From Antedon mediterranea (taxonomy: Eukaryota; Echinodermata; Crinoidea; Comatulida; Antedonidae): a stretch of 64,000 nucleotides of DNA. The notes under the pieces were generated by a model that saw only the letters and a list, made by a program, of their open reading frames with translations, was not told where the DNA came from and searched no databases. Of the stretch, positions 2,415 to 55,132 are shown in pieces (the first letter of the stretch is position 1; every line of letters starts with the position of its first letter). Position numbers and translations under genes: made by a program. The stretch covers positions 22,049,001 through 22,113,000 of the forward strand of contig NC_092680.1 of the NCBI RefSeq assembly GCF_964355755.1, read 5' to 3'.

Positions 2415-2490
2415 ATGCGTTGGCAGGCTCAATCACAGTGGGTTATTATATCGATATTTCTTTTCACGGTGACTCCGTCTAACACCCAAT
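2415..2490 (+). CDS. GPCR exon 1: signal peptide
   Basis: ATG at 2415 opens 25 codons with a hydrophobic core (WVIISIFLF) followed by TVTPSNTQ. The exon ends in phase 1 at the donor GTGAGT (2491). It joins the exon at 4811 in frame, which also begins in phase 1, giving ...NTQ-YCYPES. This fits a cleaved signal peptide directly before the first discoidin domain. Confidence 0.75.
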
Positions 2491-29874: not shown

Positions 29875-30229
29875 AGGCCTAAAGTATAACATAGTAATTT
29901 TCTGTAAGCCAAACGTGCAATTAGAATTCAATTTAAATTTTAATCAAAAAATTAAAATCAGAGAAAACACACTTTTAAGGATCTTTATACCAATTTATAA
30001 AATGAATAAAATGTTATTTTGTTGCTAAAATGACGAACTCAGAGCATACACTATCATAAATCTAACCCTACCCAGTCCTACCTAATATTCGAACAAAATT
30101 GCATATCCGCACCAGGCTAATACACCATGTACACCATATTAAAATGATAATATTATACAATATTGGATTAAATAAACATAACTAAATATAATATTAAGCT
30201 ATTAGATAAACGTATCAAAATATTAAACT

Positions 30230-31452
30230 ACTGGATACACGTATATAAAAACTAGGTAGGAGTACGTCTGGTGCAACAATAAACTACTGGACACACGTAT
30301 AAAAACTAGGTAGGAGTACGTCTGCTGCAACAATAAACTACCGGACACACGTATAAAAGCTAGGTAGGAGTACGTCTGCTGCAACAATAAACTACTGGAT
30401 ACACGTATATAAAAACTAGGTAGGAGTACGTCTGCTGCAACCAATAAACTACTGGACACACGTATAAAAACTAGGTAGGAGTACGTCTGCTGCAACAATA
30501 AACTACCGGACACACGTATAAAAGCTAGGTAGGAGTACGTCTGCTGCAACAATAAACTACTGGATACACGTATATAAAAACTAGGTAGGAGTACGTCTGG
30601 TGCAACAATAAACTACTGGACACACGTATTTAAAAGCTAGGTAGGAGTACGTCTGCTGCAACAATAAACTACTGGACACACGTATTTAAAAGCTAGGTAG
30701 GAGTACGTCTGCTGCAACAATAAACTACTGGACACACGTATTTAAAAGCTAGGTAGGAGTACGTCTGCTGCAACCAATAAACTACTGGATACACGTATAT
30801 AAAAACTAGGTAGGAGTACGTCTGCTGCAACCAATAAACTACTGGACACACGTATTTAAAAGCTAGGTAGGAGTACGTCTGGTGCAACAATAAACTACTG
30901 GACACACGTATTTAAAAGCTAGGTAGGAGTACGTCTGCTGCAACAATAAACTACTGGACACACGTATTTAAAAGCTAGGTAGGAGTACGTCTGCTGCAAC
31001 AATAAACTACTGGACACACGTATAAAAGCTAGGTAGGAGTACGTCTGCTGCAACCAATAAACTACTGGACACACGTATAAAAGCTAGGTAGGAGTACGTC
31101 TGCTGCAACAATAAACTACCGGACACACGTATAAAAGCTAGGTAGGAGTACGTCTGCTGCAACAATAAACTACTGGACACACGTATATAAAAGCTAGGTA
31201 GGAGTACGTCTGCTGCAACCAATAAACTACCGGACACACGTATTTAAAAGCTAGGTAGGAGTACGTCTGCTGCAACCAATACACTACTGGATACACGTAT
31301 ATAAAAGCTAGGTAAGAGTAAGTCTGCTGCAACCAATAAACTACTGGACACACGTATTTAAAAGCTAGGTAGGAGTACGTCTGCTGCAACCAATACACTA
31401 CTGGATACACGTATATAAAAGCTAGGTAGGAGTACGTCTGCTGCAACCAATG
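30230..31452. repeat. ~57-bp minisatellite, ~22 units, grown from a stop codon
   Basis: Units contain AGGAGTACGTCTGCTGCAAC, AATAAACTACTGGACACACG and TATAAAAGCTAGGT, with small length variants (TATA, TATTTA, CAA/CCAA). Read on the minus strand, each unit matches the last codons (GCSRRTPT) and stop of the giant gene plus the first bases of its 3' UTR. The rightmost unit is the real gene end. Open frames across the array are repeat artefacts. Confidence 0.93.
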
Positions 31453-31561
31453 ATTACCACCAAGGTAACGATGAAGGCAACAATAACGCCACCAATGATT
31501 GTCAAATACATAACAAATGTGTTAGGATCTTCATCGTTGGGAGGCAAAGTACTTTCTGTAT
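31422..31561 (-). CDS. RHS-CARDB exon 30: transmembrane helix, seven-residue tail, stop
   Basis: It joins exon 29 in phase 1. A 24-residue hydrophobic helix (nt ~31,443-31,514, from FVMYLTIIGG to VVIIG) is followed by CSRRTPT and TAG (31424-31422). The Arg pair after the helix predicts that the C-terminus is cytoplasmic. The stop lies in the first unit of the minisatellite. Confidence 0.82.
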
Positions 31562-34500
31562 CTGTAAACAAATAAAGTACAGTTAACACGCGAACAAATA
31601 ACAAACAAATTGACTTTTGAAATTAGATTTGTTAACATACAATTTGGCTCATTAGGCCTATTTTAAAACAAAACGTACATACCTTCACAACTCTTAAGAT
31701 GAACTTTTGTTGACACACTGTTCTCATGGCCATTTGTTGATTCTCTGTTAATGACTGTGATATTCATTTCAAAATCTGCAAATGTACCTTCGGTTTGTAA
31801 CTCCATCTCTTTAGTATCTCCGACTAATTTATACGTATTATTAGACACCAAAACACCTGGTGAAATGCTAATGTCGGACGGCACGTCGGATACAATAACT
31901 GACGTAATATTCTCGGATCCATCTGTGTCTGTAGACATCGCCGATATCGTCATGATAAGCTTAATTTGATCATGAGTGAAACACGGTATGTTTACGGTAA
32001 CAACCGGCGTATCAGCGACTGCTGCGATATAAACAGGGAGATCAACTCTACGTACTGCGTCTCCATGGTCACTCTTTGTGGTAGCAAATAGGACCAGATT
32101 GATGACGCCATCTATATTTAGGGGAGGAGAAAACACTAAATTGGGAAGGTGATCTATAGGAATATGCCATTCCGTTTGTAGTTTCGTTCCATGTGAGAAA
32201 ATCGACCCATCTGGTGCTCCTTTGACGATTAGCGTTGTTTCAGTACTGTAGTTACTCGCATAAGGTACGATTGAAACAGTTAGTTGAACATCACCATCTT
32301 CGTCCACGCTGGCTGCTTGTACTCCAACGACCGGAGGCTCAACAGGAGTCGTAACTGATGAAGAGAACAATATTATGTAATTTTTTTTCAACGATGTTTT
32401 GTCAGGAACTACATGTATTAGACTTTCTGTGCCAGTCTGTATCTTATTAAGAACTACTATATTGAACTCACCTGAGTTGCAAGCCGATCCGTATCTGTTT
32501 GCGTAACAGCTACATAGATTTTGTCCAGTACATGTACCGAATCCCGAACAGTTATTAACAGCAGTACACGAAACTACAAATAAACAAATATCCAGTATGA
32601 TGAATATACAGTTCCTCTTATACTTTAAAAGTTTTCAGTATTTAATCGTCTGAACGAAGTACGAAAGTGGGATGTTAAGCACACAACATCCAATAATGTA
32701 ACTCATATATAATATAGTAACCAAACATACTGACCAGTAACAACCGGAAAATCGACCGATATGATTCGATTTTCCTCCTGTAGTTCACTGTATGTAGGGT
32801 AATTGCCAACGTTGTCTCGTGGAATGGCTATTATATTGTAGGTTACACCAATAGGTACATCCAGTGTCACAGTTGTGTCAGTGGTCCCTTCAACCAGCAG
32901 CTCTGGTTCACCATCTAATTAAAAAAACACATTGCGTTATATATTTTCTCTGGTGTTACGTAATGACCATTTGCTCTAATGAGTATTGTAGTATTAAGAC
33001 TATTGCTTATGTTTGTCAGATTTATGTTGATCGACAATATGACAATATGACAATATGACAATATGACAATATGAACAGGCAACACATAGAAACAAGAAAA
33101 ACATTTTACAATTTCAAAAAGATAAGTCATCAACAGACGTGTTTTCAATGGATCAGTGTGATTAGTGTTTTTTTGGAAGAAAAAAAAATGAAAATAAGGA
33201 TTGAAAAAGAGTACAAGAAATACGTAATCCCTCCAAATGATTGAATTACCTGTATCAGTATAAATGTCAACAAAACTGACACCAGACCCATCATCATTTG
33301 TTTCGATATGAATAACAAGTATTCCAGATTCAAGAAAGTCAGTGTCAACTGTAACATTTACGTCCGGTTTACCAGAATCGATCTGACAACGAAAGATTAG
33401 AAATAATGAAATCATTTATCTAACATTTTATTCAGTATTATTGAAATAAAAACCCAGAAATATAGGTCTACATGTTTCCAAATTATAATATTGTAGCGAC
33501 ACTTAAAATCCTTGCATAATTAACAGGTGTAACTTATTTTAGGCAACCTATTGTCTGCTCACTCTACCAGAGACCGGCGAACGAGCAGCAAGTCGTTTGT
33601 ATAGCCGTATTCAAGTTTTGAATTGCCATTGAATTAATTGTTGTAGGCCTATCCAGTATTTTGAATGTTTTACTTCACGTTCATGATTGACTACCCGGTG
33701 CGGAAACACAGGCAGATAGTGTGTAAAGCTAAGAAAGAAGAGTTAGTTTGATTTTATTTGGAGAATCGAAGCCGCTCGCTTGGTAAGTACCAGGATTTAG
33801 GTATTATTGTTTTACTAACTATTTAACATACCGTATTGAATATAGGTGGTGTCTCTATTGGATCATTGTTATCAAATATTATAGAAGCTTTAGCATCAAT
33901 GACTGACAGATCAATTGTGCTAACACGTGGCTTCACTCTAAATGTCACGAAGCCTTGCCCGTCTGTTCCATTTTCTGGGTTAGGTGGCAAAAATCCTTTC
34001 AAAGGGTCTGTTGGCATTCGACCTGCAAATAAGTGCAATTGTACAGAAAAGTTGTATTTAAAGAAATACGTGTTCCTAGTAGTTAGGCCTATTTTTTTTG
34101 TAAATCGCATTTGGATTTATAAATAAAAAAATAAATTAAATATAATCTAGATAACAAGCAGTAAATTGATATTTACGTGTTTCTGGGTCAATAGCCCTTA
34201 GCTCCCAGACGATTTCACCTTTACCATAGTCCAGCGACGCAGCAACCTCCACAAACACTCCAAAAACATCAACAAAGTCTATTCGTTTCTGAAAAAAAAA
34301 AATCGCATATAACACAAACAGTGGTAATCATTACTATTTTAAAGGTTTTAAACTTTAAAATAATTCATTTTAAAGTTTAAAGGTTTTAAACTTTAAAATA
34401 ATTCATTTTAAAGTTAATTTTATCTTAGTAACGTACTTATTAGACCTACCTCATACGAGCCAGCAGGTTGTGTAACTTTGTTAGTAAAGTTTCCAAAACC

Positions 34501-37500
34501 AAAATCTCCAATTCGAAGAGTTCTGATGTCAATATTGTCATCAAGTACTGTCGTTACCAACACTCGCTGTGCGGGTGCTGTTGCATTGATATCATTTTCA
34601 AATCTAATCTTATAATCAAGATACTCATCTGTGGGCAAAAACCGTGCATCTCCGTAACCAGCGGGACCGATCATATCGTTCTATGTGACCAAATAAGAAT
34701 ATATAATTTAAACCACTGTTCTTATTGGTCAAATATTCATCAAACTAAATGTGATTAAACTCAATACAATAATATCATGATGCAAATACGCACGCGCTCA
34801 ATACATCTTGCAGTACACCAATTTTCCTAATATTTTAGGCAGTATTAGGAAGAGTCCCATAACACTAAAATAAAGATAAATATCAAAACAAACAACAAAC
34901 CGGGTCAATTGATCTAAGCCATTCAATGATCAGTCCTTCAACAAGCTGATTGATCAACTCATCACGTCGATCGAATAGGTCTTGGACGTAATCAATCAGT
35001 TTGTTTACATTAGATGTAAACAGCGATTCATACGTTTTCTTTAGAAATTCGCGTAGTTTATCCACAGATTTCCTGAGTATGTTTTTATGTGCATTTCTTG
35101 CTAGTGAACTTAATGTTGCTGCAAGTATAATATTAACAAAACATTTTTACTGTGACTATGACATCAACAAAAGCAGACTGATGCTAAATTATCAGATAAA
35201 TTAACACAAAAAAAATCAATTGAATGTGTGATTGTTGTATTGGTTGAACGCTATGTCAACTGTGTAAAAATAGAGGACAGAGCCAAATCTAATGTAGCAA
35301 ACTATTAATGTTAAAAAATCTAACTTAGAATGACAAAGTACAGTATTAATACATTAACAGTAATTATTATATAATATTAGCTTCATTAGAACTGATATTC
35401 TGAACACAAAAACGATTTAATGTACTCACGTATTGTTGACTTCTTAAACAACATATCGGCAAATGGTACTTTGGTGAGCACAGCTGAAATGAAACTCTCT
35501 TGAACGATTTTCTCATAATCATCAAAGTCATAATCTTTGATATGTTTTCCTTGTAGAGACTTCTGCAACACGTTCCCAGAACCTGTTATCAAAGCAGCCG
35601 CTGCCCACCCTCCTTTGGCCACACTACCAACGGCTCCAGTAACGGTCGCTGTAACTGCTGCAGTCCAATCAAATGGCTGATCATCTAACAAATATCCGAC
35701 AACGTATGTACCTAAGCCAAATGCACCCCCAATTACAAACACCGGTACTGTCCCTTTTGGATCAATTCCCGAAAGAGGATCATTGTTTAGATACGCGTAC
35801 GAGTTGTACGATTTTCCGTTTATGCCTAGTGGGTCTGGGGACAAAAACCGGCCATGACGATGGTCGTACACACGGGCTCTCATATTGTAAAGATGTGAAA
35901 CTCCGTCCATTTGTCGTACTCCCCATTGACCAATGAATGTAAACTTATTGATGACTCCTTCAGTCTTTGTAATTATACCGCCAAATGGATCATACTGATA
36001 AATGTTTATAGAATTCCCATCTGCATCTGTCATTGCTCTTGTTGATCTAAACGTATTAGAATAATAAGACAATAAAACAAAGAACACAGAATAACATAAG
36101 TATAATAGGTTGATCATGGGTATAAGAACGTTGATACTGAATGAAATTGTCGCAACAAAAATTACAGAGCATTGTCTAACGTTGGTTATTCGTTAACTTA
36201 CCCTAGTCTGTCAAAATGGTAGTAAAATACTTGATCAAATACCTGATTCTCGTACTTCTTTAGCGCAACCAATCCATTTTGTCCAGCAAAGACGTATTTT
36301 AGGAGTCTGTCAGCGGTTTCCTGTGGATGATTATATAGATTTACTGAGCTACATATATATTAATTTTTATTTTTTATTTTATTTCAACTACATCCAACAG
36401 CGAAAAATCGCCAATTATAGGATGCCTTAAAAATATTAGATATAAATATATACATAAAAACACATAAAAATACAATACGAAACATACAAAAATGTCAAAA
36501 TTAAATAGCTTAAAGAATGTTAGATCTAAAATTGACAAACTGTCAAAAAATATCGATAGCCATTACAAAAATACATTCATATAAAAATATACATAAAGAG
36601 CAGTCAAATGATGAACAATGAAGATCGTCTTGTTATGGTATGCCATGGTAGATATTATTAATAATACTATAAACATTTACCTCAGAGATAATTTCTGCAC
36701 CAAAATATCCGAACGGATCAACAAGAATTTGTGTTGTTTTTCCATCACATGTGGATCGGTATATGTTTCCAAGAGCATCGTATTCCAGACTGCAATCTTG
36801 CTCTGCTGTAGAATACTCTTGAAGTCGATTATCATCACTAAACGTGTAACTTTCTGTGTCTCCGTATATATTGTCAGGTTGTATCTTTGCAAGGTTTCCG
36901 TTTAAATCATATGACCAATATTCACCCTTTCCATAACTTGCATATTGGTTCAGATTATTAACAGCATATGCTTTTGAGTTATCATTTATTGTTAATATAC
37001 GTCTATTTCCTGCGTCATCGTATTTTACTTCTGTTGATTTTCCCGTAGGATCTGTCCAGGATATTATCTGTGAAGCTGAATCGTATCCGTATGTCCAAAC
37101 TCCATCTGATGAATTCAACACTCTAAGTCTGTTACGTTGATCGAATTCGTAGACCTCTGACATCAGATTAGCTTGGTTTGCATCTATACATGACGTAACT
37201 TGACTTTCTACTGTGGTGTCTGTGTAGCTATAAATCGTTGAGCAGTTGTTTCCCGTTTTTCGTTCAATCATTCGTTGCTTGTTATCGTATTGTAACTGCA
37301 TTAACTCTTGTCTTTTTGCAGAACCTTCATCTACAACACTTACCAGTCTGTCTAAATCATCGTATATGTACCTTATGTCATAGTCTTGGTTATTAGCATC
37401 GTAAATACGCGTTCTTAGATAACGGTCATATTCGTACACCAATTCTCTACCATTTGGATATGTTACTGACAATGGGAAACCATCTGTGTTGTATCTAATA

Positions 37501-40500
37501 AAGATTGTACCAATAGAATTAGTAGCCTGTGTTACAAATCCCCGATGGTCATACTGGTAATACGTAGGATCTTCGTCTGGTATCTTTTTATAAACAAGAT
37601 TACCAGCTTCATTGTGATTGAACTCTGTCATCTCGCCAGCTCGTGATTTGAAACTACTTATGTGACCATTTTCATCATAGTTCACCACCTCAGTTGTCAT
37701 GTCAGGGTATGTAATAACCGATTGTGTTTCATCATAGGTTCCAGTTCGTATATTACCATTTCCATCTTCGATGGCCAGTATGTCTCCGTTTGACGAATAA
37801 CTGATGGACGTTTCTACTCCATTTGGATCAGTTTCTAGAAAAACTCCAGTCGAAGCATCATAAGTTTCTTTTCTTATGACCTATGGAAATTTAAACAAAA
37901 TGAAAGCCTATAAAGCTTGATATAGGCCTAATTAAGATCTATAGTAGAAAGGTGCAAAATAACTACCTGATCTCCAGCGTAAATTGTTTTCACTTCGCTT
38001 CCATAATCACGAATAAATCTATAGGACAATCTACCTACAGTTTTCACATATGCAGCATTGGCATTCTCATCAAAGATAACTGTGGTTTGATCGTTACTTG
38101 GCAAATGATCAGAATCTACTCTGCCGTTACCGTTGTTGTTGAATTCCAGGCTAGACTCTACGTTACCGTCTGCTGAATTTCTAGATGACCCAGTGTAAAG
38201 TTTCATTTCATCGTATACGTATATCTGTGTAGAACCATCAGAGAATGTAACATACTGGAGTGCACCATCATTTGTATAATCGTAGTGTGTTACTTGACCG
38301 TTAATGTCTGCTGACAGTAAAAACTGAGAGTCGATATCATATCGATAACTGTTGAGAACAATGGTAAACATGTGTTAACAAAATTTAGACGAAACATGAA
38401 ACAAAATACCCGCCCCCACCCAAAAACAAAACCCTAACAGAAACACAAATATCAAATACAGACACACACGTTAGAATTTTAATTGTTAGTAGCATTTCTA
38501 CCAGCTCGTTTCAGTACTTAATTTTTCCAATTCGTGACTGTTCTTGGTTGTCGCAAAGGCAATGCTCATTGCACTTTTAGTAACTTTAACGAATTTAAAA
38601 ACAGGTTAAACTAATAATACTATTTACTTTGCCAGAAGATCCTCTTGTCCTGGTGATATCATTGTAACAGTTTCAATCAAGCCAGCGTTATTGTACACAA
38701 AATTAATAGAAACATCAGCCGTTGAGACAATCCGTTTTAAAAGGTTCTGTTCATAGTAGAAATTCAGCCGGGTTTTATCCAAATCATTATCTATATACTG
38801 CAGAAGTTTACTTGTCTTGTCGAAGTGGTAGTAGGTGACAATAGAAGACTTCCTGTCAGCAAATATTATTTCTTGAAATAGAAAACAGAGTTAGCGTTAT
38901 AAATGTTAATGCTATTAAAGTGAAATTTGTAACAAATGCGAAACACACAAGTGTTACATCCATATCAGGCTTATGACGTAATTATGTAATATTTGATTCG
39001 ATCATAACGTAATTTACTTATTGTATCAATACAAGCAAATGCCATTATTACAAATAAAGGCACAGTGGGCCAACTTGCTTGAATATTCTACATTGTTGAT
39101 ATTGCATTGTATTGCATAATATTCTATAATAAAAAGAAATATAGTTACCATCAGATTTTATTTCGATCGTTCCGACTGACGAATGTTCATAGAAGTTGTA
39201 ATTAACTACAGAGAATGAATTTACTATATATCCAAATTGGAGTTTGACATATTCACTAGTGATTTCCTTCAACCTCGTATCACTACAATGAAAAAAAGAC
39301 GAAGTTTATTAGGTTTAATTGCAGTACAACAATTGTGTTATAACTATTTTCATTCATGATTACAGTTGTACAAAAGAAATCGTATACGTCTTTAGTTTTT
39401 CAACGAGCTATGTGTGAAAAGATAAGGCTACTTACACATATTTTATTCTCCATCCACGTCCAAAAGAACCGACATATTCTCGATGTGAAATCAAAGCACT
39501 AATCTCTCTTTCTAGTTCTAGTTCGTTGAAACCAGTATAGGGATAAGATACCTTCAAATCAATGTTAGCGTACAGTGATACACCTGATAAAATACCATCA
39601 GAAAGGTTGATAATGTAATCCACTAGCAGGGTCGTATCAATCGGCCGGCGTTCAATTAAACTCAGCTGATTGGCGGTTGACGAAAGTTGTTGCGTTAAAG
39701 TTAATTGTGTTGTTCCTACAAAACTGATAAAATTCATCCAAATTTGATCCCAGGCCACTTGATCTATGTCGCTTGGTTGAAGAGAGTCTTTACTGTCGAC
39801 ATAGAAGTGGTTAACATTAGATGATGGCTTAAGTTCAACCATTCTAATTTGAATATTTTCGGTATCAAAACTTTCTGGTAGTATATATATTGCAACTTGT
39901 GCATAGCCGCCAGGGGGCAGAATTCCACCAGGTCCTTCCTGAGGTGTTGCGTAAATAGTATGCGCTGATTGCAATTCAGATGTGTAAGAACCCCGGATTA
40001 GTTGAGCGCTGGCATCACCGATCACTTCAAAAAGAACTATTGGAGTGGGAACATCTGTGTTACCAATATTCTGAATGAATAGTGACAGTATTGCTGTTTC
40101 CTGTGGGCGAAGAGCTCCTGGAGAGTTTAGTCTCATATTGACTGTTCCAGGTATTCCCTCAATTATTCTTAGATTTTGTAATGATGTTGTCTGAAGGTTC
40201 GAATTATAACGATCTACTATCTGGAAAAACCATAACGAATCAATACCTAATCCAGACAGATTGAAAGTTGCGTACACCTCTAACGAAGAAAAATGATAGA
40301 CGTCAATAGCTTCAATCTTTGTTTCGTTGTTTGGCAGTGTCAGGTAAACAAATTCCTCCTCTGAAAATAAGGTGCCTGAGATTTTTATGGTCGTAGTGCC
40401 GTAAGGGGCTGCGGATTGTGGAAAAATATCAAGTATTTCTAGTTTTGCATATTTAACGGTCAATGTTATATCGGATTGGTATTCGCTGTCTTCATTAGCC

Positions 40501-43500: not shown

Positions 43501-46500
43501 ATAAACTGAAAATGTAAATAACACCCGATACTCGTAATGTTTATCTTTCATTACCAGACGATCTTCCCAGAAATTTTCAAACGGTTCTTCTGTAGCCTTA
43601 TTCTCGCCAGACCATAATATCGTTATGGACTCTGTAGACTCGGCATTTTCAGGAAATTCGAACACAGTAGGCACAAGATCTGGCTGCTGACCGATGAAAA
43701 CTAGAATAGCACTCTAATAACACAAACAAAATAGAATAGAATGATGTAAAACAAAATGGTATTAGTTTAGTTGTTTTGAGTCGATGATTTAAATATTATA
43801 CGCCAGGGAGCTATCATAATTATCATGCCTAATTAACAATTAAAATTAACGATAAATTCTTGTTGGTGCAGTGTCCGATGGTTCATTGGGTTTAAATATA
43901 ATACTCAATTAAGTACTTATATGTTATTGCCATCTTGTACTGTATTTCAAAATGGATCAAATATTTCCTTTAGAAACTTACATCAGAATACTTTCCATTG
44001 TTTTCTTCATTAAAGTGCTCGTACACACTGTTGGTGGTGTCTGTCTCTACGTAGATCCAAAATGCACCTTCTAATTTTCGTGGTATAGTAACCGTTTGCC
44101 AAACAGTGTACTCTTCATTTGGAGCAATACCGTTGCTACGAGGTACTCTTGCAAGTTCAGTATCAAGTGTTAATGTAGTATTGCTAGTCATCAAATATAT
44201 TGTGTCGTAGATAGTTGTTGGTTTTGTGGCCGTAAACCCAGCGTTAATTACAATGAATCCCACTTCAATGTCTTTTCCTGATGCTAAATCAAAATAAACC
44301 AAATTGATAATCAACATTTGTAAGTATGTTTACATTACTTTATTGCTTTTGTTTAAACATTTTGTGTAAAGTTTACAATCGGATGATATGCACTATATAC
44401 AAGATGAATCAGAATGTGTACAATACCTGTACGTGTTGATTCTGGCACAAACACTTCCTTCACTTGTAAATCTGGTGGTGGTGTTAGTTTTACGTCTACC
44501 GGCGTTTCACTTCGTCCAATGTTATTTGAGGTGTCAATATCGTCAGAGATATATCTGTATTCATCCGCGTATACAAATACGTAGAAAGTCCCTAGGTCAT
44601 CATCTGCTAATTCAAATGTTGCTGATGCCATATATCCATCATTCGGATCCAGGAATCGTATTTGTTCTTGTCTTACTCTCCACGACAAGCTAGCTGAAAA
44701 TGTTTGACTGGGTGATAGATAGACAGTATCAAACCACCTAGAAGTAGTACTGCCTCTGAATCCGATGTTTTTAATTGTCCAAGATACTGTCATCTCTTCA
44801 CCTGATCGCTCTTCAGGTTGGACGTAAACCTCAGTGACTGTGATGTCAGGATAGGTCTCTGTTTCAAATCCCCAAATTGGACTTGGTATAAAAGATACGT
44901 TTAAGAACGTACTTGTAGCATAATCTAATATGTAGTCAACTTGCCATAGATATTTCGTATTTTGCGTAAACAGATCAACAGGGTAGTAAAATAATGAAGT
45001 CAGAAATATCCCATCTGGCTTGGGTTCATCGTTAGGCCAAACGTACAGTTTATAAGATTGAGATCCAGGATAAGCAGGCCATTCCAAGGTTTCGCCTAGA
45101 TCAACATTTACCTGCCCTATGATGGGTTGCACTGGGAGTTGTAATGGTAACACTCGAATTGTTTGAAGCTCAGTAATGACATTTCCACAGTCATCAGAAA
45201 TAGTCCAACTTCTTATAAATTCAGTGTCACATTGAACAATGTCCATAGAATCTACATATGTTACGGTCATTTCTCTTCCACATTCATGTTCCAAAATGCC
45301 CTCTGAAATAAGTTGATAGGAATCGGTTTTTCCTGCAAGTGAATCGCCACATGGAACTAACACATTGCTTTCTATGTTGTATATTGGAGGACGAGCATTG
45401 AGAATGTTCAATAACTGTGTTGATGTTGCCGAATTGAGGGCGTCATCCACTGCTGTCCATACCCTATTAATTGTACATTGCTGATCGGGAGAATCTTTGT
45501 ATTCAAGTTCAGGAGTAATATCTTGCGTATCACTAACTACAGGAGTCCCAGTTGTAAAAGGTGAAAAGTCGTCACCGCAGTTTATTGTAACGGACTGAAG
45601 CGTTTCGATAGTAGGTGGTGACAGATCTTGAAGTAAAAGAACACATTTTTAAAGAAATTGCTCGCTAAAATCTATATTATCTTATTACCCCCAATATATA
45701 TATATTCAATTGTAGTATTTGCCGGTGTAGCGTACGCATGTGAGTTTTAACTTATAGTACTGTACAAGAAGCTGGCAAAAAAGCTACTAAACTTAACTTT
45801 TTCGAAATATAATCTTTTATATAATTGCAAATTATTTGGTTCTTAGGATATATTTTGTTTGTTACTTACCAACTAACCAGGAATACTCAACAAATGTTCC
45901 TATGTTACCAACTTGGTCTATCCCTCTTACGCGAAGTTTATGCGATCCTTCCATTAAGATGTCAGTTGTAAAAGAACTGGAACATTGTACAAAATTTGGT
46001 GTGTCACCATGACGAAACACACTACAATCATACAAACAAGGGTATTCGTTGCACCTGAATCGAAATACTGGTTGTTCCACATTACTTTGAGTAGATGGTT
46101 TTGAGGTAATTGATACTACTGGAGCTGTTAAATCTACAAAGGCATATGGTTGCGTTAACAATTTGCACACATTTCACAATAATTGCATACAGTATAGTTT
46201 AAAAGTAATACTGTAGTTACCTATAGACCAGTAGTGTAGTGATGATGCAGCTACGTTGCCAGAGATGTCAGTCCCAGTAACATACAAATCATAGCGGCCT
46301 TCAGGTAAATCGACAGCGGACCAAGTGTGGTTGACACAGTTAACTGTTTCAATCATACCAGATGGTCTACTTAAAGTACAGGTAGATGACGACTCTTCAT
46401 TATATGTCCAACTTATTGTTATATTTCCACTTGTTTTCGATGGTCTTTCAATAAATTCAAGAACAGGTGGTGTACTGTTCTCTTTAAAAAGACAAAGAAT

Positions 46501-49500
46501 ATCAAAATAAATGCAGCTCGTATTCCAATGAAAGGGAAGTCGAGCGTGTTGATCTTTATTTGGAAATCATCAATGCTTGAATGACAATAATTCCACATGT
46601 GGACAATAATTGTTAAGTAAGGTTTATTGAACGATATTGAAATAATTGATATGTAACCTTGTAACTACAGTGAAATCAAACAAGCACAGTAATATTTGTA
46701 TAAATCAATTTTGTTTAAATCTATTTTTATACCTCCATGTACAAATCACACAAGAGAGTTTGCTGCCCTCAAACTTAACTACTGGACAAAACTTGTAATG
46801 AACATGCAATAGAATGACAATCTTACTTAACTTAAAGACCCCTTCCCTGCAATTTTGGACGTTTTTTGGAAAATAATACATATATATCACTTTAAAAACA
46901 TTAAACCATGTCATTCCTTGTCTTAAATGTACGTTTTATGGTAAATTATGATAAAAAGTGAGAAACAATGCACTACCTAAGTAGCTCGCGGCGATCAACC
47001 TCTCGTGGATGGTCTTAGGCCTAGCCTGGCTAGGCTTAGTTTTTTAGGCCTAGCTGGTAAACATCGGTAACGTACGAACATCGTACGCTAGCTATATACC
47101 TAGCCTGACGTTGTATAGTTGCTGCATTAATTGTCTTTCTATTTTTGCCAGACTCCGTTGATACAAATTGGGGAAAACCCGATATTTTCGCTGAAAAGTT
47201 AGGAGTCTTCCATTTGTTTTGGCCTCACGATCGATCGAAAAGTGGGCGAATTACAGGTGAAAAACAAAAATATCAATCCGCGCGCAATGCATTTTGGGAT
47301 TTATAGCGGGCCGCTATAATTATTAAGATCGACTTATTTTTCACATTTTTAACCGTTTAAAGACGAAAAAAGTTATCGCAATAGGACCATATAGTATTAT
47401 TTTTACATTAAATATAGTTTGTGATCTTAAATTAGATCTAAAAAACGTAGGGAATGGGGCTTTAACTTAATAACCAGGATGAATAAGAACTTACGAATTT
47501 CAAATGTCCAATACGCTCGGTCTCGAATGGCTGGTGATTCTGGACCACATAGTTCTAACCCCTTAGCTACACCAGAATCCATCAAAATGTAATAATTTTG
47601 TTTTTCAAGGAGCAATAGGCCTTGGGTTGTAAATTCAATAGATCCATCTCTACTTGACTGATACAGAACATCCGGACGAGATGAAACATCTATTGAGTGT
47701 ACAAGACTGTTACCGGTATCAAAAAAACGAATGAATGTTGGTCGTGTAGGTCGTACAAACTAAACAAAAAAACAATTTTTATATTATTGATTTTAAATGA
47801 TTTACTTAGTTTTACCAAGTTTGTATATAAATAATCATATAAGTAGGGCAGATAACCCATTTATGATTATTACACACAAGCGGTGTATAGTGGTTTTGAG
47901 TGCTTTCCATAGACTCTACTATTTTTGTCCAGCCTAAATATATACCTGTTTATTAAACTGTAGGCGCCATGTATCATGACTTGAGAGGATTCTAGAACCT
48001 GCACTTGGTTGAAGTGAGCCGGCAACTACGGTAGGTGGAAGTTCTGAAACATCAAATAATGTGTTATTGTCGGTGACATAAAAACGTCCAATGAAAACTC
48101 AGATATGAGTTTTCTGGATCTAGAAAACACAGATAATTATCTGAGTTTTCTCAGAACAAACAGAGACCATTCTCCGTCATGTTTAGTAGTGTTGTGTCGT
48201 CTAATTTGTCTATTTGTTTGGCCAATAATATATTATTACAGGGTTTTAAGCTCTTATATACATACCACCAGTTGCAAAAGTTACACAGGATTGAGGAGTT
48301 GATTGTCTAAAAAAAGTAAAAACATGCCAACAAATTCAAAATAGTGTAGGTCTACATTTTTGTTGAACATATTGGTTTCTATTTTAGATATTATTTACTA
48401 TGAATCATTCGTATGCTATTTTAAAATATCTGAAGTTTTCTGATTTTAAAGAACCCTAATCATTTTTTTACGCCAGGTCACTAAATAAGTTGCCCCATCT
48501 ATATTTATTACAAATGTATGTAAATGGAATAATGTGTGATAGAAATTATTTATATCCAGCTTTCTTACCCTTCCGTGTTTTCTGCAGTAAAACAAAGTAT
48601 ATTTTCTTGTCCTAACTGCTGCACGCTTGGTGTCCATGTTATATTCACATAAAATAACTGGTTCTCATTTTGTTTTGAGGCTACAAGTGACTTTGTAACG
48701 CCCAACGGTGAAACTGTGTCAATGGCTGATATCCTGTAAAATGGAAAAGAAAGCACATTCAGAATGTACTTTCAATCTAAGATAGACCAATGACACTATT
48801 AGTATTTGGTTAATGCTTATTTTAAAGTAGTGATATAGGCCTATAGCCGAATATGTGTGTAACCACCTGTGTTTTGTAAGCCAATCAAGGTAAGTGTGCA
48901 GGCCTACACGAAATGTTTTTAATTGCTCACAAAATGTATTTTACAATTTACATAAAATAATTCTAACCCAACACCATCGCCTCCACTTTTTGCAACAATT
49001 TCTTGAATGTAAGTTTCATTTGCTGGAATTCCGATGCATGCTCCGTCTTTAGGCGTCGGATCAACAAATTCTGGTGCGGAGCTGCAAAGACCTTCGTTAC
49101 TGAAAACGTTCACTAAGAACTGAAGAGGTACTGTGCTCAATGGTGTCGTCGACAAAGGTTCTGCAAAGTCTTCAATCATTAAAGCCACAACGTACCAACC
49201 TACGGTATACTTGGCCTCATACCGAAAGGTACACGTACTCTGTAAAATATATACATTAATAATGTTAAAATAAATATAAATAAAAATTACTAACATTATA
49301 AAAGTTGTATTATAATTTAACACTGCAATGTGCTATATTATTATCTAAACCTCTTATTACCTCTTCAAGAAACGCATTAGGAAATCCATTGCATACATCA
49401 CCACATTCAAAGCTACCTACAGCCCATCGACATCTCACTCTATCACCATCTGGGTCATTCACTAATAACAATGAAAGGTTAATAAAATATAAATAATGTG

Positions 49501-52500
49501 TTGTTATAATTATCAATAGAAGAGATAATAATATATGTCCTTACAGAATACACACATGCAATTTAAGTAATACTGCACGCTCAGAAATTTAGAAGAAGAT
49601 GGAAGAACAAAATTTAAGAGTAACTCTAAGGAATCCTAGATACCATATTTTATTGAGCGTACACGGCTATACTTTCAATTAGTGTAAGCCAACTTTTCGT
49701 CTGAAGCAGTATCTATATAATAATAAGATTTACTTTCACAGAAGAATTTAATTAATTAATTCTTGTAACTTTTTGTGGAACTTTTGTAATTGAATGTATT
49801 ATAATTACATTATAAAAGGTTCGATTTGAATTTTCTGTTAATAATCTGATAATTGGATAGATAATCAGAGTTTCAAAATATAATCAAAATCTTTACCAGG
49901 AATAACTAATGTGTGGTTACATCCATGCTGCAGTCGAACAATCGGAGTAACAGAAGAAAGTGGAGATGAGTTAGGTCTTTCAGTGTCCTGTCTTATAGTC
50001 AAGTTAACTGTCATTGGAAGTGACCACCCACCATTACTGCCAACAACTAGGCCACCTATCCAATTACGACCGGAAAACCTGTAGAATTATTATTAAGAGA
50101 TAATTATGCAGTGTTGCTTCTTTTGCAAAGTTAGATAAACGAGTTTATCGGAATAGAGGTGCTCACTATATCTGTACATATCGAATCAAGTTAAAAAGTT
50201 AAGTTTAAAACAAATATATACTCTACACACATTTAAAAAGGCCTAATACTATTTCTACACACATTTAGTTGTATAAAAGGCCTACTACTATTTCTACACA
50301 CATTTAGTTGTATAAAAGGCCTAATACTATTTCTTTATAATATTGGATTTGTTACTAGTTATCATGGTATACAATATGTTGGTAGTAGCCTACAATTGAA
50401 GTGATTTACTAAAAACCAAAATATATAAATAATAAACACATGCTTTTGCTTGCGGTAGGCCTACAACAATGCTCAAAGAAAACCTTACTCGTATGTATTA
50501 AAAAAATCCTTAAATTATTTGTTTTAGGCCTAAACAATTTTATTACCTCAATGGAATTTTAATTTAAACACAATTACCTAAAAAAAATGTGAAATATATT
50601 ATATAGGTCTAGGATTGCGTCATAGTAAAATAAAATAACCGGATATGGGCCTACCTCATAGTAAAAGTGGGACTTCCTGCAGAAAATGTAACAGAGTTAA
50701 CGCCCGATGTCCAATCTTCACTAACGCTAAAATCAGTGCAATAGAAAGACAAGGAAACACCACCTGAACAGCCAGAAGTGCAACTTAGGCTACCTTCACC
50801 ACTTGATAAAAGTTCATTTGCTATCGTGTTTTCATCACAGTGTTGCCTACCTCTTCGCCAAGATATTCTCCAAGATACGTCAATCTAAGAAAATACAATA
50901 TTACCAATAATTTTAAATCGCGCAATTACGAAACCGATGGATCTACTAGTGCGTTTTCTTAAAGATGTATTGTCCCTTGAAACACAAAAAAATGAAGGTC
51001 AAAATATTCTAAATTTAAATTGGCCATATCAAAGTAATATTAAAGTTATTCACCTTAAGTCGAACATTTGAGCCAAAAACAACAATTGTACGTAATTAAC
51101 AGCTAAATTAATTTGATTACATTTCGTCTGGATAATCGTCCGAGCGAAAGTAAACAAAGATTTCCAACCATAAGTATACATTATGCATGATGCTAATAAG
51201 GATTGTTTACAACTCGTCACGGATGAGAAGGTGTTTTCACACAGATCGCGTGAGGAAGTTTTATGATTATGCATACAGAGTAGCCAAATATAATAATTAT
51301 ATTTAATAATTTATTTCGGAACTTCACTTTTGTAACAGTGGCACACTTCATATTTTGAAGGTGCGCATTACAATTTGTTTTGTTTTTTTGGCCTATTTAA
51401 TTTTAGTGCGTATGTTTGTCGGGCACGGAGTGGATAATTTGGTATACCGGTAAATGATCAGATATGTCTGAGATTAGTATACCAGATAACATTTGTTCAG
51501 AAAGTGTATTGAAGAAAATGTTATCAATTAATGAAGATGTGTTGTTTTGTATTCTAGTGGGTCTTGAAATCGATGGGTAGAAGGAATGCGACATCATTAC
51601 TTCTAGAAAATTATTTACAAAATCAGTCGATGCAAGCTTAAGTAAATTAATGTTAAAATCACCCATAATGTGGCATGATTTTCCCTCGATATCAATAGTA
51701 TTAAGAATATCGTCTAGTGATCTATTAAAAAGTTCTATATTCGAATCGGGAGGTCTATTATATTATACCAACAATCGTATTGTTACATTTTTTTTCAATT
51801 ATTTCAATAAAAATACATTCACAAGATTCAATAAATAGATCTTTTCTTTCTTTTATGTCAATTGTAGCAGAAACAAACATACCAACTCCCCCTCCTTTAC
51901 GGTTCTTCCTATCTAATGCGAGGAAGTCATAGCTCGGTAAATATGGTTTGCACGATGTATTGTTTAACCATGTTTCCGATTACCAATAACTGTAAAGGGG
52001 TGGTTGATTAAGTTTAGGTATGTAGTTAGTTCATCAATGTGTTTATTGATACTTCGAATATTATAGTGAAGAAATGAGTAGCCAATATTTTTTAATTTCT
52101 TCACAGATTCATTCAAGTCATATGGACTCATATAAGAACATGTCTCAATAGCATTTAGCTTGTTTCTGAGACTATATTCAATGAATTCGTCATGGTCATT
52201 ATTACCATTACCAATAGATATTGGATTAAATAGTATATCCATTGGATTTGATATTTCGTTTTCATCACCGTTATTTTTATTGTTATCCATGCTTTGATTT
52301 TGTATGTTTATTGATTGTATTTGTCTATAAAAAACTATTTTAATTAATATAATTTATAATACTATGCTTATGTCTACTGCTTAATTTCAGTTACAATAAC
52401 TTTCTGAATTTGTGTTACCTTACAATTGTTGAAATTTGTGGTAACGTGGTCTACCTCTTCCTGTGTTAGCTTTTCTGCGAGATAGACCTAGAACGTTTTC

Positions 52501-55132
52501 AACTTTGTATCTGACATTACTGGCCAATAGGCTGGTGCCTCCATCTGATAGATGGTATCCATCAGGTGCTAGAAGTGTGTCGACCAGCTCGCCGTTTCGT
52601 AAGAAGTTGCTATTGTCGCAGAATGTTAGGTTTGGTATTTTGTCTGTGCGTATCTTGTGCTTTATACATGAGTTTGCTATTTCAACTCTGAAATTTAGTG
52701 GGCCTGCTCGTGGTAAGCCAAGTGATATCAAACATTTAGTGTCTGGATGTTTTGTGGCATACTCACTGACTGTGTTGTATAGCGTTTCTGCGCACTTTTC
52801 TGGAGCTGATTCCTTTACAGAGTTAGTTATTTCGTGGATTACTATACAGTCAAGTGTTTCGTGGATTTCGTCGAGTGCATTTCCAATTTGGTCATTAGTG
52901 TATGCGTGTGTAATGCTTACATCTGCTTTTGGTAAAATACGACTTGCTTCGACTTTTTTTAAGTGCGAATTTCCTAATAGTAATACAGATGGTTTCTTGC
53001 TTTCGTAGGCTCGATGTGTGTCATTATTTTTCATTAGACTTTCTGCATACGACAATTTCTGACTGTCTTTTTTTTGAGTTAAAAGTTTGGAAGTCTGATG
53101 CGTCGATGGCTACCTGGGTTCGTTTTGCTTCGTACGCGTACTCCCTTGCTTTTTTCTGTTTCGTGTATTGCTGTCTGTAGTTTGTCCTGGAGATTTGTTA
53201 TTTGTTTATCTTTCTGCAGGATCATATCGTTGTTTCGCTTGACATCTATGAAAGCATTAGCTGTTAGTTTGTTTTCTCTTTCTGTTTTATTGATTTTTTC
53301 TTTCATTTTTTCCATTTCTACCCTTATTTCTTGTAGGCCGGTGGCGTTGGGTTGTCTGTTGTTTTCTGTGTACTTTAGCTCCTGTCTTAGGAGTTTTATT
53401 TCAGCCTTTAGTTTGGTGTTTTCAATGAGGATGTTGTTACTTTCTTTTAGTTCATGTCGCAGACATTCTATTTCTTTTTTCATTGACTCACTGTTTATGA
53501 GAAGTTGTTTTTTTTTCAAGTGTTTTAAAACTACTTATATAAAAAATTCTGTTGCCTTATCTTAAATACATTTACATATTACAAATAAGGGATAATAACT
53601 CTTAACTTTCGTGAAAAAATAAAGCGTTTTGGATAAGTAGTTTTTCAGCAACTGTAATTTTAGTTGTAACGTTACGTTCTGACTGCTCAGGAAAGGTTGG
53701 ACGACTTCGAACATTTTCGCCTATCCTTTAACACTAGCCGGTCACTGACAAACCAAAACACTGCTTCAAAAAAGGGGCTGTGCCGGCAAAGTATCTGAAC
53801 CAATCACATTTTACTTTAGGTCATTAGAAAGCTTGATTGATTAGCTTTTGAATGGTGTAACAGCCAATATCATTGGATAACTAGGTCAAACGTTATAAAC
53901 GTTTTTGTAAAGATCTCAACAAATTGGCAAAACAAGCCTATTCTTTTAACACAGGGCAATTTTCAAATCGTCTAACTTTAAAAATCAATGCTGACGACGT
54001 TTTAAGTTTTTTTAAATTAAAAATAACATGACATCGTAGGTACTTAATTAGGCATTACAATGTCGAAACAGCCATAACAATCGGTCAATTAATAACAAAG
54101 TTATATTGAAAAAACCTTAAAAAAATAGCTGTTTTCGGTGATTTCGAGCCGTTTAGCGGAAATCGCCCGGATTTTTGGGTACATAAAACAAATTGTAATG
54201 TCCAACAAAAAGAAAATATAAGAAGAAGGCACAAAATAGACAAAAACTTAGGTAATCTTACTTAAACTGCATACGGTAACATGTAATAAAAAACCCATTC
54301 ATTCCCCTCCCTCCCCTTCTCCAAAAATAACAAGTACAACATATTATTTAAATACAGTACATGATTACTCTTAATCTACGAAACCAATCACTAATCAACA
54401 ACAACAAACCAACCCACTCTCAAAATCAACAATAGGCCTACACAGGTTTTTTTTATCTGAAAGATCAGGTTAATAATTTAACCGCACAATGAGCATTATT
54501 AATGAACAACCATATTTTTGCTAAAGCAAGCAATCATCCTTGCCTTGGGTCTATACTAATAGATCGGGCCATTATGGTTGGGGCTGAGCAGTGAATACTG
54601 AAATATGTCACTCTTGATGCCCGGAAATTGCACTCTCGTATAACGTTTTGTGGGAGTGTGTTTTTTTTCTTCTTAGAATGACGTGTTGATGGAGGACGGG
54701 GTAACCCTTATCGGTGAAAACACTTCGCCTGGGCGGATGCGTGATTTCGTAAATGTGATAGACCTTAAACCACCTTATCCCCAATCAAGGTTTCGAACAA
54801 AAAACAGATAAACTAAAGTTCAGATCATCAGTCTGTTAAAAAAGGAAGGGATTGTAGTATATAAAACTAAGCTGAATAGAGTAAAATCTAGCCTAACGCA
54901 ATAAATTAAATTCTTGTAATATAGTACCCTAACAACTTTTCAAGTTTCAGAAGAACGCGCCTGTTGAGAACTAGGCCTACAATTTAAAATTTAAAACGTC
55001 TGATATTACCTGATTTGGCACCGATGACGGCTTCCATGTAAATAGGGCTCCTCGAAAGTGAGTTGAATTTACAAATACAACTAAAAACAACTCAAAAAAT
55101 ATCAGCAGAACCAAGTATATGAAAGACTTCAT
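31422..55132 (-). CDS. Giant type I membrane protein: THFRG domain, Ig/HYR, CARDB x~9, RHS/YD repeats, EGF, TM
   Basis: Thirty exons joined by hand give 12,216 nt (4,071 residues plus stop) with phase preserved throughout. Residues: signal peptide and THFRG-type N-terminal domain 1-303; unrecognised 304-492; two Ig-like modules 493-667; HYR-like pair and FN3-like segment 668-~910; about nine CARDB domains ~910-2110; linker modules to ~2490; RHS/YD shell ~2490-3330; post-core region to 3485; bacterial-type C-terminal module 3486-3767; EGF 3768-3801; two Ig-like repeats to 4025; transmembrane helix and seven-residue tail to 4071. It is not a teneurin: teneurins are type II with N-terminal cytoplasm and EGF repeats, whereas this has an N-terminal signal peptide. 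The order CARDB-RHS-C-terminal module resembles giant secreted proteins of cyanobacteria and planctomycetes as I remember them. Role is unknown; adhesion or matrix binding is a guess. Confidence 0.87.
31683..32354 (-). CDS. RHS-CARDB exon 29: two Ig-like/cadherin-like repeats
   Basis: One 672-nt exon. The repeats share D-E-D-G-x-V-x-L, V-x-G-A-P-D-G-S-x-x-S-x-G-T, and D-T-D-G-S-E-x-x-x-x-V-x-V-S-D-V-P. The VADTPVVTV bridge between them is typical of bacterial calcium-binding adhesin repeats (DEDG...VADAP...DTDGSE..). Confidence 0.78.
32472..32573 (-). CDS. RHS-CARDB exon 28: EGF-like domain
   Basis: This 102-nt phase 1-1 exon has six Cys: SCTAVNNCSGFGTC, then CSCYANRYGSAC. It is a short EGF of the tenascin/teneurin sort, an animal-type module added between bacterial-looking ones. 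Confidence 0.85.
32735..33382 (-). CDS. RHS-CARDB exons 26-27: IDSG... Ig-like module
   Basis: Exons 33382-33250 and 32914-32735. It starts IDSGKPDVNV directly after FNT, has DDGSGVSFVDIYTD, and closes with YNIIAIPRDNVGNYP. Bacterial proteins with the preceding module continue in the same way (NTIDSG..P.S, DDGSG....IYV, Y.F...A.D..GN). The joint preservation of order across exons 23-27 is the strongest hint of bacterial ancestry. Confidence 0.75.
33036..33075. repeat. 10-bp tandem repeat (GACAATATGA)
   Basis: Four adjacent copies of GACAATATGA in an intron of the minus-strand gene. Confidence 0.9.
33832..34680 (-). CDS. RHS-CARDB exons 23-25: bacterial-type DPND...FNT module
   Basis: Exons 34680-34450, 34288-34177 and 34022-33832. 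It reads NDMIGPAGYGD, YKIRFENDINATAPAQ, TLRIGDFGFG, EIVWELRAIDPET, DPLKGFLPPN, GQGFVTFRVKP and IIFDNNDPIETPPIFNT. This order of motifs matches a C-terminal module of large secreted bacterial proteins that I recall (DPND..YTIRFEN..AQ, GFLPPN, GQGFVSY, IIFD.N.PI.TP). No animal family is known to me. A protein search would settle it. Confidence 0.8.
34341..34416. repeat. 38-bp direct repeat x2, palindrome-rich
   Basis: AAAGGTTTTAAACTTTAAAA followed by TAATTCATTTTAAAGTTT occurs twice in tandem in an intron. It is almost pure A/T with internal self-complementarity. Confidence 0.85.
34901..35118 (-). CDS. RHS-CARDB exon 22: helical post-core segment
   Basis: This 218-nt exon encodes a helix-rich, Lys/Glu/Leu-rich region (KSVDKLREFLKKTYESL, then LVEGLIIEWLRSIDP) between the RHS core and the next module. 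It has no family match that I know. It ends IDP, and the next exon begins NDMIGP, so IDPND spans the junction. Confidence 0.75.
35430..39282 (-). CDS. RHS-CARDB exons 16-21: RHS/YD-repeat shell and RHS core
   Basis: Exons 39282-39149, 38871-38628, 38348-37967, 37880-36681, 36320-36202 and 36046-35430. Dozens of YD-type repeats (YDxxGxxxxxx) are seen, for example YDYTNDGAL, YDENGHIS, YDDAGNRRI, YDALGNIYR and YDPFGG. Exon 21 holds the RHS core: F-I-G-Q-W-G, LYNMRARVYD, GRFLSPDPLG, YAYLNNDPLSGIDPKG. In bacteria a variable C-terminal domain follows this DPxG. Here a Gly/Ala-rich stretch (residues ~3335-3400) resembles bacterial post-core sequences. RHS shells form closed beta-barrels in known structures. 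Confidence 0.92.
36378..36430. repeat. Dispersed repeat scrap (CATCCAACAGC...GGATG), second copy
   Basis: This intronic segment (intron between exons 20 and 19) has CATCCAACAGCG and then ATAGGATGCCTTA. It matches the layout at 18,086-18,135, in the same orientation. Confidence 0.3.
39436..45626 (-). CDS. RHS-CARDB exons 12-15: HYR-like pair, FN3-like, ~9 CARDB and linker modules
   Basis: Exons 45626-44427 (1,200 nt), 44283-43982, 43713-43555 and 43313-39436 (3,878 nt, one exon). Exon 12 starts with two HYR-like units (NRVWTAVDD, RSWTISDDCGN) and an FN3-like strand set. CARDB units repeat the pattern PDL-x-V, W-x-x-x-N-x-G, W-x-D-x-(I/V)-Y-L-S, G-x-(Y/F)-x-(I/V)-x-D and a closing D-x-x-N-N. 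A polybasic RRKRR (nt 42249-42263, residue ~1572) is a furin-type site between two CARDBs. The exon ends REYVGSFGRGW, which is how bacterial RHS shells begin. A segment with WDQIWMNFISFVG precedes it, again as in bacterial proteins. Confidence 0.85.
45870..46481 (-). CDS. RHS-CARDB exons 10-11: two Ig-like modules
   Basis: Exons 46481-46221 and 46133-45870, one module each, both phase 1-1. Each has the pattern TISW or FRFRC, a central Cys pair, L-x-E-G-x-(Y/H)-x-L-x-V and a closing D-x-x-G-N. This pattern is common in bacterial secreted Ig-like repeats and also occurs in animal proteins. Confidence 0.75.
46836..47461. mobile_element. 626-bp MITE of a second TTAA family
   Basis: Left end AGACCCCTTCCCTG and right end (reverse complement) AGCCCCATTCCCTA, with TTAA on both sides (46832-46835 and 47462-47465). 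It sits in the intron between exons 10 and 9 and is GC-richer than its surroundings. The interior differs from the 26,751 family. Confidence 0.7.
47495..48733 (-). CDS. RHS-CARDB exons 6-9: unrecognised linker modules
   Basis: Exons 48733-48569, 48306-48266 (41 nt), 48043-47946 and 47759-47495, phases consistent. Exon 6 ends with YVNITWTPSV and ILCFTAENTEG and looks like the close of the N-terminal domain. Exon 9 (VRPTRPTFIRF, then DGSIEFTTQGLLLLE) is beta-rich and unassigned. Confidence 0.72.
48968..50884 (-). CDS. RHS-CARDB exons 2-5: conserved N-terminal extracellular domain
   Basis: Exons 50884-50655, 50078-49897, 49461-49361 and 49239-48968. Landmarks: ISWRRGRQHCDENTI, SCTSGCSGG, CTDFSVSEDWTSG, VNDPDGDRVRCRWA, CTFRYEAKYTVGWYVVALMI, PLSTVPLQFLV and a final AKSGGDGVG. 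It has paired cysteines throughout. I recognise it as a conserved animal extracellular module but know no function for it. Confidence 0.8.
50221..50335. repeat. ~40-bp tandem repeat x3
   Basis: CTACACACATTTA, TTGTATAAAAGGCCTA and CTACTATTTCTA recur three times in order in an intron. The copies carry the AGGCCTA word. Confidence 0.85.
50963..51289. mobile_element. Truncated copy of the 541-bp TTAA MITE
   Basis: It starts AGATGTATTGTCCCTTGA after TTAA (50959-50962) and runs parallel to 26,751-27,077 with few differences, ending at AGAGTAGCCAAA. The right half is missing. Intron 1 of the RHS-CARDB gene. Confidence 0.88.
51403..53519 (-). mobile_element. LINE fragment: ORF1 (coiled coil + SGNH esterase) and ORF2 endonuclease
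   Basis: On the minus strand: a Lys/Glu-rich coiled coil (53519-53079), then an esterase-like ORF (53055-52420) with VLLLGNSHLKK, DCIVIHE and APDGYHLSDGG. These fit the GDSH and D-x-x-H blocks of SGNH hydrolases found in CR1-type ORF1 proteins. Next is the endonuclease N-terminus (52290-51964, FLHYNIRSINKH), a one-base frame slip near 51985, SETWL, GGGVGMF, MGDFNINLL and ISDHLPVYQ. No reverse-transcriptase domain follows, so the 3' half is lost. The copy is dead. It sits in intron 1 in the gene's own orientation. Confidence 0.85.
53520..55009. other. Rest of RHS-CARDB intron 1: nothing recognised
   Basis: AT-rich intronic sequence. The first few hundred bases may be the LINE's 5' UTR. I saw no exon, RNA gene or clear repeat here. 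Confidence 0.35.
55010..55132 (-). CDS. RHS-CARDB gene exon 1: signal peptide and THFRG start
   Basis: ATG at 55132-55130 opens 41 codons: a long hydrophobic core (YLVLLIFFELFLVVFV), then NSTHFRGALFTWKPS. The donor GTAATA follows AATCAG in phase 0. The THFRG-x-x-x-W-K-P start is one I know from large invertebrate extracellular proteins. It continues in exon 2 with VSWRISWRRG, as that family does. Confidence 0.82.

Follow-up and report, generated by a model that had tools for sequence, protein, structure and literature searches.

The window, i.e. the whole 64,000-nucleotide stretch of DNA analysed, contained one very large predicted gene on the minus strand, located at 22.09 Mb of the long contig C11. 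The gene was rebuilt afresh from stop-to-stop frames with a dynamic-programming gene finder and inspection of 3' splice sites, and small exons were corrected by hand. All 29 introns were GT-AG with compatible phases, and the coding sequence (12,210 bases) was free of in-frame stops. Span, strand and exon number were identical to those given by an earlier reading of the letters without database searches (hereafter the sequence-only reading). Its length of 4,071 residues was nearly matched, the rebuilt protein being two residues shorter. The gene finder scored 771 on the real strand, compared with 72 on the opposite strand and 74–98 in five block shuffles; since the coding statistics were trained on open reading frames (ORFs) of this same gene, the score is a control for chance and not an independent prediction. 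The introns were AT-rich (GC 0.307) compared with the exons (0.395). The gene and its exons are as follows.

31422-55132, minus strand: whole gene, predicted type I membrane protein of 4,069 residues in 30 exons (from ORFs, splice sites, gene model and controls)
Exons 1-8, minus strand: 55132-55010, 50884-50655, 50078-49897, 49461-49361, 49239-48968, 48733-48569, 48306-48266, 48043-47946
Exons 9-15, minus strand: 47759-47495, 46481-46221, 46133-45870, 45626-44427, 44277-43982, 43713-43555, 43313-39436
Exons 16-23, minus strand: 39282-39149, 38871-38628, 38348-37967, 37880-36681, 36320-36202, 36046-35430, 35118-34901, 34680-34450
Exons 24-30, minus strand: 34288-34177, 34022-33832, 33382-33250, 32914-32735, 32573-32472, 32354-31683, 31561-31422

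Other features were visible in the window. Intron 1 contained LINE-like remains (51406-53534, minus strand) with an endonuclease domain and a coiled-coil ORF1-like frame. On the plus strand at ~4600-28800, exons encoding F5/8C-like, C-type lectin, CUB, LDL-A and rhodopsin-type seven-transmembrane domains followed each other in this order, perhaps representing one gene for a GPCR with a very large ectodomain. Together with the teneurin described below, this neighbouring receptor gene fits a bilaterian animal. The end of the window (59888-64000) was densely filled with tandem repeats, in which long but spurious frames occurred on either strand.

Pfam and NCBIfam searches of the predicted protein revealed HYR_4C, CARDB, TIG, RHS_repeat, Rhs core and DUF7619, in this order along the chain. 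The N-terminal head had the following features, all on the minus strand.

55067-55132, minus strand: signal peptide, aa 1-22 (by hydropathy; putative cleavage site)
49066-55066, minus strand: THFRG-type N-terminal domain, animal part, aa 23 to ~270 (spliced)
45151-45288, minus strand: HYR_4C-like unit, aa 781-826, within exon 12 (Pfam PF23237)
44427-45626, minus strand: exon 12, with animal-type HYR units and the first CARDB unit, uninterrupted; junction to bacterial-type sequence near 45,124-45,141

Both the signal peptide and the HYR-like units named by the sequence-only reading were recovered, the latter with a match (7.3e-6) just under the cut-off. Further copies of the THFRG-type N-terminus occurred on contigs C1, C2, C3, C5 and C6 of the same genome, and none was matched among 72,556 plasmids. 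The copy on C6 (G000:C6:23593574-23602607, minus strand) matched at 64–76% over aa 41-308 and at 53% near aa 402-493. Profile and sequence searches gave no CARDB, RHS or DUF7619 match beside this paralogue. It may show what the host gene looked like prior to the fusion with the bacterial part, or be a copy from which that part has been lost. Homology to bacteria started at aa 835, inside exon 12. Because the HYR_4C unit and the first CARDB unit lie in this one exon, the N-terminal fusion is physical and does not depend on splice prediction. The cysteine content was 3.1 per 100 residues in the N-terminal 835 aa, 0.0–0.46 in aa 836-3765, and rose again at the EGF-like module, as expected for animal ends around a bacterial-type middle.

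The middle of the protein, interrupted by 15 introns, comprised the following modules.

32736-45126, minus strand: bacterial-homologous part, aa ~835-3765, exons 12-27 (spliced; blastp to intronless bacterial ORFs)
40821-44853, minus strand: CARDB array, aa 926-2050, about nine units (PF07705; 24-27% to bacterial CARDB arrays over ~1,000 aa)
42246-42263, minus strand: furin-type site RRKRRQ, aa 1570-1575, the sole RX[KR]R motif of the protein
39831-40793, minus strand: PPC-like, TIG-like and NIGNTD beta-sandwich modules, aa 2060-2380 (TIG PF01833 0.0011, just under cut-off; 22-28% to bacterial relatives)
39732-39755, minus strand: AWDQIWMNF (WDxIxxNF) motif, from aa 2406 (44% over 36 aa to a Nostoc protein)
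36216-39473, minus strand: RHS/YD shell, aa 2500-3200 (RHS_repeat PF05593 5e-23, over cut-off; 26-29% to the bacterial family)
35752-36218, minus strand: RHS-associated core, aa 3200-3303 (TIGR03696 9.1e-20, over cut-off; 42-50% to the bacterial family)
34916-35751, minus strand: post-core linker, aa 3304-3478, with one hydrophobic segment (hydropathy)
33371-34906, minus strand: DUF7619 (DPND...FNT...IDSG) module, aa 3482-3665 (PF24595 5.7e-18, over cut-off; up to 49% to bacterial proteins)
32736-33370, minus strand: FN3-like module, aa 3666-3765 (35-40% to bacterial relatives)

Nine CARDB units were counted by eye from W/Y-x-D...YLS motifs, and two Pfam matches (4.4e-15 and 9.3e-24) were over the cut-off, in agreement with the sequence-only reading. 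The same held for its WDxIxxNF motif, for the RHS shell with a bacterial-type core and for the DPND module, now assigned to DUF7619. Searches of the genome for CARDB and for DUF7619 matched this gene only. Against the PDB, the RHS region matched bacterial Rhs proteins best (up to 2.5e-26). In alignments, the Rhs core kept the arginine and the two aspartates of the Rhs aspartyl autoprotease (R3271, D3276, D3300), the pattern given for this enzyme in PMC9935623. DUF7619 is listed as a predicted isopeptide domain (PMC12617251). The position of the bond-forming lysine (Lys 657 of L7WFS8, the fifth position of the Pfam domain), mapped by inference via the Pfam domain start, falls in the sequence DPNDM in this protein and in DPNDI in the bacterial members closest to it. 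With methionine in place of the lysine, the intramolecular bond is not expected in this protein. A sequence search with DUF7619 found nothing in the PDB, and the predicted structure of the module from two bacterial relatives had a pLDDT of 39.5.

The C-terminal end had the following features.

32473-32735, minus strand: EGF-like module, aa 3766-3799 (exon 28 at 32573-32472)
31687-32352, minus strand: C-terminal repeats of the ectodomain, aa 3801-4022, with weak similarity to bacterial Ig/cadherin-like adhesin repeats
31446-31514, minus strand: transmembrane helix, aa 4040-4062, followed by the short basic tail CSRRTPT
30224-31447: minisatellite of 56 bp, 22 copies with 93% matches, which overlaps the gene's 3' end and holds its stop codon

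An EGF module and adhesin-like repeats had been proposed. The six cysteines of the former were visible within 35 residues, although the Pfam match was weak (PF07974, 0.02), and the latter weakly matched plasmid-encoded Ig-like proteins (E 1e-7 to 4e-3). The single transmembrane helix was strongly predicted (hydropathy maximum 3.05). The joins of the bacterial-type part to the EGF and transmembrane exons rest on splice prediction. The last coding bases enter the minisatellite, and the short cytoplasmic tail is thus the least certain part of the gene model.

Bacterial genome contigs were searched with DUF7619 as bait, and then, together with the Rhs core, 343 genomes of the phylum of locus L006, 395 of the phylum of L005, and the 72,556 plasmids. 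Whole bacterial ORFs were read and aligned by blastp, and matches were tabulated per module. The animal protein from aa ~835 to 3765 (nine CARDB units, PPC-like module, TIG, WDxIxxNF, RHS shell and core, DUF7619, FN3-like module) was collinear with single intronless bacterial ORFs. A plasmid-encoded protein of Gloeothece verrucosa PCC 7822 (WP_245602873.1) aligned with aa 1445-3926 at 28% over 2,557 columns (674 bits, E = 0), with AWEVIWQNF as the counterpart of the WDxIxxNF motif and a gap at the loop holding RRKRRQ. Two Bacteroidota ORFs aligned with aa 1052-3743 over ~2,800 columns (616 and 595 bits). Taken module by module, bacterial matches were found for CARDB, the TIG part, the RHS shell, the Rhs core (42–50%) and DUF7619 (up to 49%). 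The N-terminus, the post-core linker and the C-terminus taken alone had no significant match among the bacterial relatives in the module table, and the protein ends (THFRG/HYR; EGF, transmembrane helix) had no comparable bacterial match. A two-gene model was rejected: exons 12-27 match one bacterial ORF without a break, and exon 12 encodes both HYR and CARDB. The homology thus argues for one gene rather than several, as the sequence-only reading had it.

Relatives of DUF7619 came from a wide range of bacteria, namely Cyanobacteria, Bacteroidota, Planctomycetota, Pseudomonadota and Acidobacteriota; two scans of IMG/VR gave no viral relative. Among the relatives read, RHS lay between TIG and DUF7619 in Cyanobacteria and Bacteroidota. 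Those read from Planctomycetota and Pseudomonadota had the CARDB array, the TIG-like part and DUF7619 in the same order, but no RHS, and in two Planctomycetota proteins carboxypeptidase-regulatory-type repeats occupied its position. The module order had been attributed to giant secreted proteins of cyanobacteria and planctomycetes; the cyanobacterial part of this attribution stood and Bacteroidota have to be added, whereas the planctomycete part did not hold for the proteins read. The bacterial giants (WP_245602873.1, BBD63171.1 of Nostoc sp. HK-01, and those of Bacteroidota) shared the modules and their order with the animal protein over ~2,500–2,800 columns at 25–28% identity. The features of this family recognized in the animal protein are CARDB followed by PPC-/TIG-like modules, RHS between TIG and DUF7619, and DUF7619 followed by an FN3-like module. 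Unlike the animal gene, the bacterial ones are intronless, and those scanned lacked the THFRG/HYR head, the EGF and the transmembrane helix. The scanned ones end in Cadherin_3/He_PIG/RTX or He_PIG/dockerin-like modules, where the animal protein ends in an EGF-like module, repeats and a transmembrane helix. The C-terminal sorting or secretion end varied among the bacterial members and was not treated as family-defining. All members scanned were long multi-module proteins, and the dockerin-like or RTX ends of two of them fit secreted or surface proteins.

Two further observations concern these relatives. A Planctomycetota protein of 3,913 aa (L030:3131-14869, minus strand) carried an IgGFc_binding domain (3.1e-76) ahead of its CARDB array and carboxypeptidase-regulatory repeats in the place of RHS. 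Several of the cyanobacterial members (L054, L055, L057, L059, L063) were plasmid-borne, some on plasmids typed as conjugative or mobilizable, a location that may aid the movement of such genes.

In the DUF7619 tree (34 rows), the animal sequence was placed among bacteria, on a long branch within a clade of 27 rows supported at 89/92. In the RHS tree, it joined the CARDB-RHS-DUF7619 family against other RHS proteins (90/90), and the RHS trees placed it beside, not inside, the sampled bacterial family. The branch lengths of the animal row were 1.5–2.7. In the concatenated set, the animal protein was 28–30% identical to all bacterial members, which were 42–82% identical to each other. The trees support an origin of the animal protein from the CARDB-RHS-DUF7619 family of bacteria.

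The sequence-only reading had proposed an ancient transfer from bacteria, and the cyanobacterial and Bacteroidota alignments lend support to this claim. We infer the direction of transfer, and consider it very likely that a bacterial giant was captured, given introns and animal ends, and now serves as a type I surface receptor or adhesin. The starting point would be a single bacterial gene whose product was a giant secreted CARDB-TIG-RHS-DUF7619 surface protein. With or after horizontal transfer into an ancestor of this animal, the bacterial-derived part would have acquired at least 15 introns and become joined to an animal THFRG/HYR N-terminus and an animal EGF/transmembrane C-terminus. The gene could instead have been present in early eukaryotes or choanoflagellate-like ancestors and inherited vertically, being kept in scattered lineages. 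The long branch and the many introns imply great age, and teneurins have such a history (PMC6297184). We regard this as somewhat unlikely, although it differs from capture by transfer chiefly in timing and the two readings overlap: the ultimate bacterial source would be the same, and our sequence searches covered prokaryotes. Another ancient bacterial transfer that was kept and refitted is PADI from cyanobacteria (PMC8826395), which is an enzyme, in contrast to the giant multi-module surface protein described here. No animal protein with such a CARDB/RHS build was found described in the open-access papers searched, and its novelty among animals rests on this. We know of no named animal family with this architecture.

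The function may be that of a single-pass type I cell-surface receptor for adhesion or recognition, which we judge to have about an even chance of being correct. This proposal follows from the features of the chain: it has one transmembrane helix, Pfam and NCBIfam found no toxin domain past the core, and the autoprotease residues are retained. The transmembrane helix would hold the chain with its N-terminus outside the cell, the CARDB array would form a long stalk, the RHS shell would be displayed as a hollow barrel at the cell surface, and DUF7619 and the FN3-like module would link the barrel to the membrane. Furin would probably cut at RRKRRQ, inside a CARDB loop, and self-cleavage of the Rhs core is likely, or at least possible, just after aa 3303 via the conserved Arg/Asp/Asp triad. 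The cleaved pieces would stay associated non-covalently. Processing and adhesion are both read from motifs and homology. Mosquito SGS proteins suggest another role, that of a secreted or shed toxin-like carrier. With the Rhs core and linker as query, SGS1 (PDB 8fjp) was the best solved match (3.7e-8), ahead of bacterial teneurin-like proteins (1.6e-5 to 5.5e-5). It has an Rhs shell and the conserved autoprotease residues in common with the animal protein, and the hydrophobic post-core segment of the latter recalls the shell-enclosed helices of SGS1 (PMC9935623). However, the core is followed by another ~765 residues, which include DUF7619, EGF and the transmembrane helix, a continuation that the bacterial relatives share as far as the FN3-like module. 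The domains described for SGS1 in PMC9935623 include propellers, CBM and lectin domains and Tox-SGS, but neither CARDB nor DUF7619. In the animal protein, propellers and Tox-SGS gave no Pfam or NCBIfam match over the cut-off. With no toxin domain found after the core, a role as toxin carrier appears unlikely.

The CARDB, RHS and DUF7619 parts could conceivably have arrived in separate transfers or been put together convergently, because these modules are promiscuous in bacteria, some of which have CARDB-TIG-DUF7619 without RHS. Such a piecemeal origin is improbable: one gapped alignment extends over every module, with the order unchanged and the spacing similar; each module finds its matches in one and the same set of bacterial proteins; and the RHS part falls in the tree with the RHS of this bacterial family.

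Teneurins are likewise animal membrane proteins with an RHS/YD shell and Rhs core. They are type II proteins with a six-bladed NHL propeller before the YD shell and a C-terminal Tox-GHH domain. They are thought to derive from bacteria (PMC6297184, PMC13018210) and lack the last Asp of the autoprotease triad (PMC9935623). A search of the genome with the Rhs core matched two loci: this gene, and one on C5 that has a Tox-GHH match ~1 kb away.

G000:C5:5795840-5797175, plus strand: separate teneurin gene with Rhs core and Tox-GHH, on another chromosome

A divergent teneurin, or a teneurin derivative, in this lineage would share the RHS/YD shell, the Rhs core and EGF with the giant, and the core does match the bacterial teneurin-like proteins. 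This is nevertheless highly improbable. The genome has its own teneurin elsewhere, and a PDB search with the RHS region retrieved no teneurin at any E value up to 10, in contrast to the bacterial Rhs matches. An NHL propeller had no Pfam match at E up to 1, its place being taken by the TIG/beta modules and WDxIxxNF, and Tox-GHH was absent from the Pfam and NCBIfam matches of this protein. CARDB-TIG and DUF7619 are collinear with bacterial non-teneurin proteins, the Rhs sequence is more bacterial than in teneurins, and the autoprotease triad is intact. The N-terminal signal peptide and C-terminal helix predict type I topology, on which the sequence-only reading had based its exclusion of a teneurin; that exclusion stands, on stronger grounds than topology alone, namely that NHL and Tox-GHH domains are missing and that the genome's teneurin is encoded by a gene of its own. 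Bacterial contamination or a chimeric assembly, although the central part is of bacterial type, is extremely improbable given the 15 spliceosomal-type introns inside that part, the AT-richness of the introns, the LINE-like element in intron 1, HYR and CARDB in one exon, an identity to any bacterium of only 28–30%, and the position at 22.09 Mb of a long contig.

Among animal receptors made from bacterial YD-repeat proteins, teneurins are the standard example, and their origin is treated as a rare, formative event. On balance, we think that the giant represents a second, independent animal capture of an RHS-barrel protein, i.e. a type I receptor with two cleavage sites, one host-type and one for inherited self-cleavage, in an unnamed family parallel to the teneurins. 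If true, the presence in one genome of a second such receptor, captured almost whole from another bacterial family and with the opposite topology, would mean that bacterial barrels are repeatedly usable as animal surface receptors. It also makes testable the idea that animals keep the barrel rather than the toxin: here no toxin domain was found and, in contrast to teneurins, the self-cleavage residues are still present. These bacterial giants, themselves an uncharacterised family, now have an animal relative to study.
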